The notes under the pieces: model-generated
Told to the model about the DNA's origin: nothing
Seen by the model: the letters and a program-made list of their open reading frames with translations, nothing else
Database searches by the model: none
Translations under genes and position numbers: made by a program
Shown: one piece after another, positions 24,390 through 30,170 of the stretch
Position numbering within the stretch: the stretch's first letter is position 1
How the letters are laid out: each line of letters begins with the position of its first letter
DNA from: Novakomyces olei
Lineage: Eukaryota; Ascomycota; Novakomycetes; Novakomycetales; Novakomycetaceae
NCBI GenBank assembly: GCA_016906335.1
Contig: JADEYG010000003.1
Span: 248,001 to 312,000, forward strand
DNA length: 64,000 bases
Reading direction: 5' to 3'

Positions 24390-24987
24390 CTACAAAGGTT
24401 TTTCTTCGTGGTTCACGAACGCTTCACGTTTACCACCGGTCCCAGCAGATACGTCCGCATACTCAAGCTCATCATCCTCGTCGTTCCCATAGACTTCCGG
24501 GTGCATTCTAAAACAGTTTTGCATTGCTTGGAACTGATCAATGCAGTCAATACCCTTCGGCTCCTTTTCACTGTACACAAAGCACGAGAAAGCCATTTTA
24601 AACTGCTCTCCACAGGGCCCATGAGCCATTCCACCCAAGCAGGGACAGTCCCAGTTTATTTCACCAGTCTCTGGGTTAAAGGCTGCCTGGTTCTCTCCGC
24701 CAGCTTCGTGTTCAGCGACCTCGGAGGACACATGACTGGCAATCTTGGCTCCTGAGTCTTCGCTCCCAGACGTGTTGCTGCCTCCACTAGGCTTTTGTCC
24801 GGACTTTGTATCAGCAGCTCCACTGCCCTGACCTCCGACTGAAATTGCATCAGCTTGATGCCTGGAAGATGAGTCTTGTTTACTAACGCCAGAAGCATGC
24901 TGTTTTTCGTGGTCAATTCCTAGTACTGTGTCACCAATCCTGTGAAGCAGGCCAGGCTCTGTATCGTTTCCAGATTGATTAGCAGAA

Positions 24988-25052
<65 letters not shown>

Positions 25053-28000: not shown

Positions 28001-30170
28001 CCGCGTTTCTTATTGCCTTGGCCGGTAAAAGATTCAGACGAAAGGGCTGAAGGCTGGCTGCTGCCAAAAGTTCCATTGCTTACAGAATGCTCATCCGCCT
28101 TTTGAGCTCTGAGACCTTGATCCATTTCATTTCTAGAAGACGAAGCCGAACTTTCACTCTTTTTCATTAGACCGGCTGCTCCAGCAGCAGCCGTCGGAAC
28201 AAGCCCTGAAGCAAAAGCAGGAATAGAGTTTGAGGAAGGCTGCTCGGTTTTGTCACCAGATCGAGTCGCTCCCGGTCTATGGCCAGCAACGTTCAACGTT
28301 TGATCACGGAGCAAACTGCTGTGTTGTGCTCCGTTCGGGAACCTTTGACTCACCATCCCAGAGTCTGTAATATGAGGCTGACAGTAGCTGGTGCTTTTAT
28401 TACTGCCCGTAGAGCCCTCAGGCTTTGCAGAAGTCTCATGGCCGAGTCCAGCCACGTCTAAGAGAGCATTGTGTGGCAAATTAGCGGTATTTATAGTCTT
28501 GTTTCCGGTCTCATAATTTGAGGCATTTTCCGGCTTTTTCAACAAACGTGCTCCAGGCTTATTAGCACTAAAATTAGTGACAATTCTGTTATTGCTGGCA
28601 ACGTTCCCATCCGCATCTTTGCCCGCATTTTTAAATAGAGGGCCAGCGTACGATTTGGGTACATCAATTCCAGCGCTGCTTTGACGATTGTTAGGACGAT
28701 TATTTGCTTCAAAGGCGGTTGTTGGAGTAGAGCGAGAGCCAGTGCTTCCTGGGCTTTTCGTACTCTCCAAACTAGCTCCTGCTTTTGCTGCTGAGCTAGT
28801 GGCCTTGGTGTTTACTGAGGATTTATTTGAGGCTGTATTATGGCTCTCGGCAGCTTTGTATCTAGAAGCAGAGCTGTGTGCTTTAGTGGGGGAACTGCTT
28901 GCTTTGGCCGGCGAGGGCTTTGCTGTAGAATCCTTTGCTGGCTGTTTAGAGTCTGATTGCGCAGATGAATGGACAGAGCCCCTTGTCGAAGACTGTCTCC
29001 GCGAAAGAGTGCCCTGCGCTTTTTGAGCGCCTTTGCTAGAATCATTTTGAGCCTTTGAGCTTTTCAAATCAACAGATTTGCCCGAGCTTCGATCCTTATC
29101 ACCTGGCAAAGACGAAACCGAAGGGCCAGCAGTACTAGAGGTTCCAGACCTTGCAGACTTTGAAGCTGTCGAATTTCCAGATACTTTGGAAGCGTCAGAA
29201 ACACCAGGACTGGACGCGTCCTTTTGAGCACTTTTCCGCGGCCTGCCTCGAGTTGCAGCAGCCTTCACGTCCCCCTGGCTGCCTGCAGAAATTTCTGATT
29301 TACTATCGGCACTAGATCCACCCTTGCCTGTCGCATTTTTGGACTTGCCGGTCTTGGAGACGTCACCGGATGAGCTACCAGCCTGGATAGAGCCTTTACC
29401 CTGCGCTCCAGATTCTGATTTTACCTTACCTGCAACTTTTGCCGATCGTGCGGCAGTAGTCTCGGAGCTTTTGGACTTTGCCGACGCTGCATTATACGTG
29501 TCGCCCGTTTTATTTCCCTCATTTGCTCCATTGTCCGCACTGGCAGAGGCGGCTGAGCCTTTCCCACCTTTCCCACTTTTGCCGTCAGTGGCTGTGGGTG
29601 TAGAGAACTCTGAGCCTCCAGTCTTGGCACCCGCACCAGCGCTTGCGAGAAGGGTATCTAGAGCATTAGTTGAAAGCAATCAAATTAATCGGTTTGTAAT
29701 TAGAAAATTAATAATTAAATTGAAACGCAACAGAGTGTCTCCTCCCCCGGTAGCTTACCCCTTGCAGGCCGTCCACGTCCACGCTTAATTGGGGCAGAAG
29801 CAGTGCCGGACGTGAGCGCGTCTATCGTATTTCGCTGCAAATCGAGCGATACAAAAGCACCTCGAGCACGTCGATTGTGGGGACTGTGGAGGTATACTTT
29901 GACGTTTGACAGATGCACTTCGTCGCCGGTGACGGTAACACTCTCAGACGGAACAGAAGCAGAGCCGGAAGAGTCTGCAGCGGCAATTGCTGGACTAGAG
30001 CCAGCTGGCTGCTTTGACTTTACTGCCAGAGGCCGTGTAGAAGACGAAACAGCGTACTCCCGCAGAAGCGAGAGCGGAGAAAAGCGGCAGGGAGGCAAAG
30101 CAGCCGCGCGCACACGCAGCTGCCCGGCCGTTTTAGCCGCTCGCGATATAGACCACGGTCTTGTGCTCAT
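24390..30170 (-). CDS. MIA40: very large mitochondrial import protein Mia40
   Basis: Mia40 is the intermembrane-space oxidoreductase that imports cysteine-rich proteins by disulfide exchange with Erv1. Exons 29759-30170, 27006-29657 and 24390-26764 join in matching phase to 1812 residues; known fungal forms have about 300-400. The N-terminus (MSTRPWSISRAAKTAGQ, Arg-rich) is a presequence. About 800 Ser/Gly/Lys/Ala-rich residues follow, with RGRPAR and RGRPRKS AT-hook-like motifs. NPWILGGLAFLVSALALTQI at about residue 960 is the membrane anchor. After it come charged, Gln/Ser/Gly-rich sequence, an LEA-like helix region (EDKARKWAGRAREDVDHL) and five GDxVxGIDHE repeats. The C-terminus has INWDCPCLGGMAHGPCGEQF with the redox CPC and both CX9C pairs. 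The order presequence, anchor, CPC domain is normal; the length is not. The middle exon could instead belong to a separate gene. Confidence 0.8.
24895..26555 (-). repeat. five GIDHE protein repeats within MIA40
   Basis: Copies of LLHKxGDxVLGIDHExxH are encoded near 26500-26555, 26236-26292, 25471-25530, 25132-25193 and 24895-24957. The last three are almost identical (LGIDHEKQH). The first two have drifted (RGIDHERDH, LGIDHADHA). Spacers differ in length and sequence, so these are dispersed protein motifs and not a DNA satellite. Confidence 0.9.
24985..25052. repeat. hexamer repeat encoding Ser-Gly dipeptides in MIA40
   Basis: About eleven copies of GAGCCT (plus strand) encode a Ser-Gly run after the membrane segment. 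A similar but less regular tract, 27214-27300, encodes Gly-Ser before the membrane segment. Such tracts change length by slippage without breaking frame. Confidence 0.95.

Follow-up and report, generated by a model that had tools for sequence, protein, structure and literature searches.

An Enlarged Mia40 with a Repeat-Bearing Arm in Novakomyces olei, Probably Encoded by One Three-Exon Gene

Gene Structure

The window is a stretch of 64,000 nucleotides from Novakomyces olei (GCA_016906335.1, contig JADEYG010000003.1, positions 248,001 to 312,000). On its minus strand, a gene model of three exons extends from 30170 to 24390, and all features of the gene given below are on this strand. Translation of the three joined exons yields 1812 amino acids and a stop, with no internal stop. 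Exon 1 (29759..30170) codes for a presequence-like N-terminus (residues 1 to ~41, with a putative cleavage site) and the start of a putative matrix arm. Intron 1 (29658..29758) is in phase 1 and runs from GTAAGC to AACTAATGCTCTAG. Exon 2 (27006..29657), an open frame, codes for a predicted disordered basic arm, a (GS)n tract and a membrane anchor. Intron 2 (26765..27005), also in phase 1, runs from GTACTT to ATCTAATCTGACCAACAACAG; its donor is weak and its acceptor is good, and it would be an intergenic gap if the locus held two genes. Exon 3 (24390..26764) is one open frame for a putative intermembrane-space arm and the CPC domain, with the stop at 24390-24392. The exon coordinates, the phase of both introns and the size of about 1812 residues, all proposed in an earlier note on this DNA, were confirmed by retranslation.

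The note had put this size at five times that known from fungi. This is roughly true against the Mia40 of Saccharomyces cerevisiae, which has 403 amino acids, while the longest proteins judged to be single genes in our searches (667-677 aa) are exceeded only ~2.7-fold.

Exon 3 lies within one open frame of 794 codons, whose earliest Met residues are 1037 and 1042 of the model; therefore, barring an unseen intron, a Mia40 of about 770 (771-776) residues or more is nearly certain. There is no Met in residues 138-571, and the first one in exon 2 is residue 572, leaving 434 residues that need an upstream start. Since the frame of exon 2 is open to beyond the anchor and lacks an earlier Met, an upstream exon must precede it, and exon 1 is a suitable one. 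Intron 1 is thus required, unless the start is non-ATG or lies in a different upstream exon.

No family in Pfam or NCBIfam matched exon 1 or exon 2. The PDB search found no relative of exon 1; for exon 2 it gave 25 matches at E values up to 1, GS linkers accounting for almost all of them, with a few weak others. The exon 1 sequence occurs at a single place in the genome, and no paralogue of exon 1 or of a 262-aa piece of exon 3 was found elsewhere in it. Outside the gene, the window contains two very long AT-rich microsatellites (12302-12820 and 58728-59183), which give poly-Ile, poly-Leu or poly-Tyr frames.

The Mia40 Catalytic Domain

The C-terminal domain (24489..24683) belongs to the Mia40/Tim40 family by its CPC motif (C1728-P-C1730) and twin CX9C fold (C1739-x9-C1749 and C1762-x9-C1772). 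Its sequence matched PDB entry 2zxt at 3.5e-35. AlphaFold2 predicted a helix-turn-helix fold with block pLDDT of 84-97 over the CPC/twin CX9C domain, and the Foldseek matches of the predicted domain to 2zxt, 3a3c, 2k3j and 2l0y were all at E <= 0.001 (2zxt, 1.2e-7; human 2k3j, TM-score 0.78 over the target). An alignment of 22 Mia40 sequences has 29 invariant columns, with CPC in the context W-D-C-P-C-L-G-G. The Pfam CHCH profile scored 27.0 bits on exon 3, 0.2 below its cut-off. The assignment of this domain made in the earlier note is secure. The most similar CPC domains belong to diverse Ascomycota and Basidiomycota.

A genome-wide search found no second Mia40 domain in the 14.34-Mb genome, the domain of this gene being the sole match. 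An Erv1-type partner oxidase is probably present, since ALR-family (Erv1) domains occur at two places in the genome.

The Repeat-Bearing Arm

The distance from the anchor to the CPC domain is 748 residues, close to the 750 estimated before. In this arm, the exon 3 frame contains five copies of a 21-residue PGLLHKIGDTVLGIDHEKQHA-like motif: PGLLHKLGDTVRGIDHERDHA (26493..26555), PSFLHKLGDKALGIDHADHAK (26232..26294), PPLLHRIGDRVLGIDHEKQHS (25461..25523), PGLLHKIGDTVLGIDHEKQHA (25128..25190) and PGLLHRIGDTVLGIDHEKQHA (24894..24956). Pooled over ten overlapping pairs, pS is 0.80 and pN is 0.22, a ratio of 0.27, with near-saturated synonymous sites. The fourth and fifth copies differ at 14.0 of 14.7 synonymous sites and at only 1.0 of 48.3 nonsynonymous sites. 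In the shifted frames, pN/pS is 1.35 and 1.66. Based on the low ratio, the near-saturated pS and the values of the shifted frames, the repeats are old, translated in the exon 3 frame and constrained, and the same test rules out that they originated as junk or out of frame. A degenerate DNA pattern for GDxxxGIDH matched five sites in the genome, all within the Mia40 gene; the reversed pattern had no match in the genome.

AlphaFold2 of exon 3 (with the alignment of 22 Mia40s) predicted the CPC domain with confidence, along with a long helix and a small strand pair; most of the remainder has low confidence. The long LEA-like helix (25962..26204; residues 1209-1289, exon 3 residues 187-267) has block pLDDT of 59-88, mostly 82-88. 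The strand pair, with a helix, is found at exon 3 residues 362-384 (1384-1406 of the full model) inside the low-confidence arm, with block pLDDT of 78-82 and 53 at its end. No order is predicted for the repeats, whose helical moment is unexceptional (shuffle fractions 0.05-0.20). Tentatively, they most likely bind a membrane or a partner.

Profile searches on exon 3 found little else. Pfam up to E 1 returned only CHCH, YtxH and GCK (0.45), the YtxH match being a weak one at the LEA-like helix (E 0.17), and no LEA or dehydrin profile. NCBIfam gave a weak WXG100 match under the cut-off (E 0.024). No relative of exon 3 residues 1-560 was detected at E 0.001 among 7992 scored candidates of ~434-1382 aa. 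Viral and prokaryotic contigs, where a fungal relative is hardly expected, contained none of exon 3. The sequence gives good support to an enlarged Mia40 whose repeat arm is under selection.

Short repeated segments in a G-rich disordered context are also present in the K-segments of plant dehydrins and in fungal dehydrins such as TbDHN1 (PMC1550403). The motif of N. olei is a short repeat in such a context as well, but it fits neither the K-segment nor, in the form given in a passage of that paper, the fungal signature.

The Presequence, the Basic Arm and the Anchor

Of the 16 Met residues in the model, M1 alone has both no acidic residue and at least three K/R in the first 30 residues; it has six K/R there, and its moment of 0.38 lies near the bottom of the reference range. 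Eighteen reference N-termini were chosen by hand from 69 Mia40-domain proteins, and 17 of them have no acidic residue and at least four K/R in the first 30. The exception, P0019, has an upstream extension and a better Met further in. Given the three-exon model, the N-terminus at M1 has the characters of a fungal-type cleavable presequence.

Residues 42-959, the 918 residues from the putative presequence to the anchor, contain 114 K/R and 74 D/E (net +40), while residues 979-1700 contain 78 K/R and 107 D/E. Exon 2 folded without an alignment had a mean pLDDT of 36.6, low except at the helix of the anchor and at a weak one preceding it. The 918-residue arm thus looks disordered and basic. (GS)n tracts are seen in exon 2 and also in exon 3. 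Two AT-hook-like cores, identified as sequence motifs, are KRGRGRPAR (residues 129-137, 29760..29786) and RGRPRK (residues 274-279, 29233..29250). RGRP occurs twice in residues 42-959, and at least two occurrences were seen in 1 of 20,000 shuffles, for a motif picked post hoc. A mitochondrial HMG-box protein of Podospora has an AT-hook whose core is given as PRGRP in a passage of PMC7463775. The cores here resemble it as AT-hook-like cores in a putative fungal mitochondrial protein, but they lack the leading P and have no Pfam match, there is no HMG box by Pfam, and the protein would be membrane anchored. The basic arm would most likely, though this is tentative, bind nucleic acid or acidic matrix partners.

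The membrane anchor PWILGGLAFLVSALALTQI (27133..27189, residues 961-979) is followed by NRRRNKEAKKR. It is the top hydropathy window of the model (1.69) and is predicted as a helix with block pLDDT of 64-80; a weaker hydrophobic window (1.36) is at residues 616-634. The number of extra residues before the anchor, previously put at about 800, is actually 960, or ~920 when counted after the presumed presequence.

Comparison with Other Mia40 Proteins

A query with the CPC part of exon 3, scored against 122 candidates within the allowed length range, found 65 that have a Mia40 domain. A query with a long Mia40 found 10 among 43 candidates (742-2361 aa), of which 6 had already been seen, making 69 in total. 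The protein of this gene itself was not among the matches of either database search. The top hydropathy window and the CPC motif were located by script in all 69; five (P0002, P0054, P0057, P0058 and P0063) do not have the exact W[DN]CPC string and no spacing is given for them. Judgment was by sequence for 33 and by the table and listed Pfam domains for the other 36, with P0064 left unjudged.

Most long Mia40 entries in the database have the look of neighboring genes merged into one model. The proteins read by sequence that have a long stretch before the anchor appear joined to a kinase, carrier, J-like, septin-like or SAM/SH3 neighbor; some of these domain names are our presumption. An inner Mia40 start is still visible in P0005, P0010, P0025, P0029, P0036, P0039 and P0041, and is not visible in P0021, P0024, P0027, P0032, P0042 and P0047. 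As some merged models show no second Mia40 start, a lone visible presequence is not enough to rule out a wrong join. In P0006, P0012, P0014, P0018, P0022 and P0036 (Ceratobasidium and Rhizoctonia; P0018 carries a Mia40 database name), Mia40 follows or precedes a PF03235 protein in one model, and these are probably merged neighbors. In P0066-P0069 (Hesseltinella, Gongronella, Halteromyces and Absidia), CPC at residues 55-60 and an RNA helicase are in one model with no hydrophobic window before, either as a shared run-on or as a real fusion.

Among the hits judged to be single genes, the maximum spacing between the anchor and CPC is 528 residues (P0049) against 748 here; P0053 (557) was left out as an MNN9 run-on by name. 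Linkers of 520-528 residues are found in P0037, P0048 and P0049. LEA/apolipoprotein-like linkers in P0051, P0052 and P0055 (their linker profile scores are below curated cut-offs) and repeats in P0043 likewise place a long helix-forming or repeated segment between the anchor and CPC. These four proteins differ from that of N. olei in the repeat motif, in having no long arm before the anchor and in their size of 459-562 aa. The repeat-bearing linker of P0043, an unnamed Mia40, consists of three FLSRHD..P....VDDI..YV..HPGG units. Because other Mia40s have LEA- or apolipoprotein-like linkers, the intermembrane-space arm is considered to extend a known trend. The literature searched contained no paper that joins Mia40 with 'late embryogenesis abundant'. 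The earlier note knew of no such Mia40; the long intermembrane-space arm does have precedents in the linkers above, whereas for a long arm before the anchor no precedent was seen among the 69 proteins (33 by sequence, the rest by tables).

The S. cerevisiae type of Mia40/Tim40 shares with this protein the presequence, one anchor on the N-terminal side, an acidic linker, the CPC motif with twin CX9C and the fold of 2zxt. It differs in the position of the anchor, here at residue 961, in the spacing (748 versus up to 528) and in the five repeats, which are this protein's own. Yeast Mia40 is imported through Tim23, with the N-terminal stop-transfer sequence directly downstream of the presequence, as described in a passage of PMC8061763; here ~920 residues lie between the two. 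A single anchor soon after the presequence is a feature of fungal Mia40. With its anchor at 961-979, far from the presequence, the protein is regarded as a variant of the fungal form.

One Gene or Two

Ten reference introns were read by hand: five in genes of the window, which we take to be those of a branching enzyme, ATP2 (twice), proline dehydrogenase and PLRG1, and five against P0067/P0068, the latter from two genes. Hand reading may favor consensus-like sites; automated intron finding on 264 kb of the genome was too noisy for a donor consensus. The reference donors score from 2.9 to 10.0 bits, each left out in turn, and the intron 2 donor GTACTT scores 3.9 bits. All ten share an A at +3 and a G at +5, and the latter is absent from intron 2. 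The intron 2 sites are the best phase-compatible donor and acceptor pair in the stretch, and 240 of 2000 dinucleotide shuffles hold a phase-compatible pair scoring as well. The earlier description of both introns as having good acceptors and matching phase 1 stands for the acceptors and phases, with the reservation of this weak donor. The join of exons 2 and 3 is not proven by splice signals alone, so the argument for one gene rests on targeting and architecture.

The gap of intron 2 has 50% T on the minus strand and contains a 62-codon hydrophobic frame (26775-26963) that begins with MNLKINDMYF and is closed by a stop shortly ahead of the acceptor. That the gap might hide a first exon was considered and rejected, as this frame ends in a stop and no consensus donor was seen by eye.

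Division into two genes is unlikely. Gene A would be exons 1 and 2 read into the gap, a mitochondrial single-pass protein of 1041 aa with the AT-hook-like cores and a stop ending at 26944, and gene B a soluble Mia40 from M1037 (26720; 776 aa) or M1042 (771 aa), with neither presequence nor anchor and imported like vertebrate CHCHD4. The weak donor, the in-frame stop soon past it with AATAAA just before the stop, and the acceptable context of M1037 (GAGATGG) agree with this division, as does a passage of PMC8069373 in which the Mia40 anchor is described as non-essential for function. Vertebrate CHCHD4 (human MIA40), which shares the CPC domain (2k3j, TMt 0.78), is in that text soluble, without presequence and anchor; gene B would be alike solely in these respects. 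M1037, however, has no targeting signal (no K/R and one acidic residue in 30), against the no acidic and at least four K/R residues of 17 of the 18 chosen references. A presequence and an anchor just upstream on the same strand would be a coincidence, and exon 3 is directly preceded by a phase-compatible acceptor that has a branch-point-like motif. A turn of the net charge, basic before and acidic after, is seen close to the exon 2/3 border and likewise near the anchor, so charge cannot decide between one gene and two.

A main product shorter than the full model, from a start inside exon 2 of the same locus and with the long form minor or also made, is quite improbable. M889/890 (27405/27402) would give a protein of 923-924 aa with the classical layout of a presequence-like helix, the anchor ~72 residues in, an arm and CPC, and M726 one of 1087 aa. 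The 30 residues from M889/890 are mildly presequence-like (one acidic, 4-5 K/R): four K and one E follow, a helix is predicted (exon 2 model 744-774, block pLDDT of 49-61), and the anchor is at the usual distance. At M726 there are two R and no acidic residue, and the moment of 0.47 is higher than that of M1. Against these starts, a presequence-like character equal to that of M890 is found at 48 of 843 start points across that stretch, the K/R count is higher at M1 than at either, and the upstream open frame still needs a product.

Skipping of exon 2 as a cassette, giving an anchorless form of 928 aa from exons 1 and 3 beside the long one, would preserve the frame, the exon having 2652 nt (exactly 884 codons) and phase 1 at both borders, but such symmetry is common by chance (~1/9 of exons if phases are even) and the anchor would be lost, making this form very improbable.

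One gene, whatever its main product, is thus strongly favored, and the full-length, 1812-residue, inner-membrane-anchored Mia40 is probably the main product. The proposed order of presequence, long arm, anchor, long arm and CPC in one gene is the best reading, with M1 as the sole start that pairs a lack of acidic residues with richness in K/R and with a clear anchor in exon 2, and its weak point is the poorly marked intron 2. The model has a single clear anchor and a single CPC domain, placed in the order of fungal Mia40 as it appears in passages of PMC8069373 and PMC8061763. The argument from architecture is weakened by M726, by the hydrophobic window at 616 and by the merged models that have no inner Mia40 start.

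Possible Function

The Mia40 family oxidizes CX3C/CX9C proteins and is re-oxidized by an Erv1-type oxidase. For the full-length protein, the sequence suggests that the N-terminus would enter the matrix via TIM23 by its presequence, and that ~920 residues of basic, disordered chain would follow. The hydrophobic segment at 961-979 and the basic cluster after it would halt the transfer and anchor the protein, so that the C-terminal ~830 residues would remain in the intermembrane space. There, the 748-residue acidic arm, with its five conserved repeats and LEA-like helix, would hold the CPC domain, which would oxidize incoming CX3C/CX9C proteins and be re-oxidized by the Erv1-type oxidase.

It is also conceivable, but doubtful, that this Mia40 spans the inner membrane with its 920-residue, AT-hook-bearing matrix arm tethered to the mitochondrial nucleoid. 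No paper on Mia40 together with AT-hook was found in the literature searched. A published link of Mia40 with the nucleoid and mtDNA may exist; there are papers naming all three terms. If the tether is true, the disulfide relay would be sited where mtDNA-encoded and imported respiratory subunits assemble.

Production of the long form would mean that more than 900 residues can pass through TIM23 into the matrix ahead of the stop-transfer anchor by which an essential enzyme of the intermembrane space is sorted, and that a Mia40 has gained parts on either side of the inner membrane. With exons 1 and 2 set aside, the five old, selected repeats still suggest that the linker, a part of Mia40 usually seen as a spacer, can have a function.
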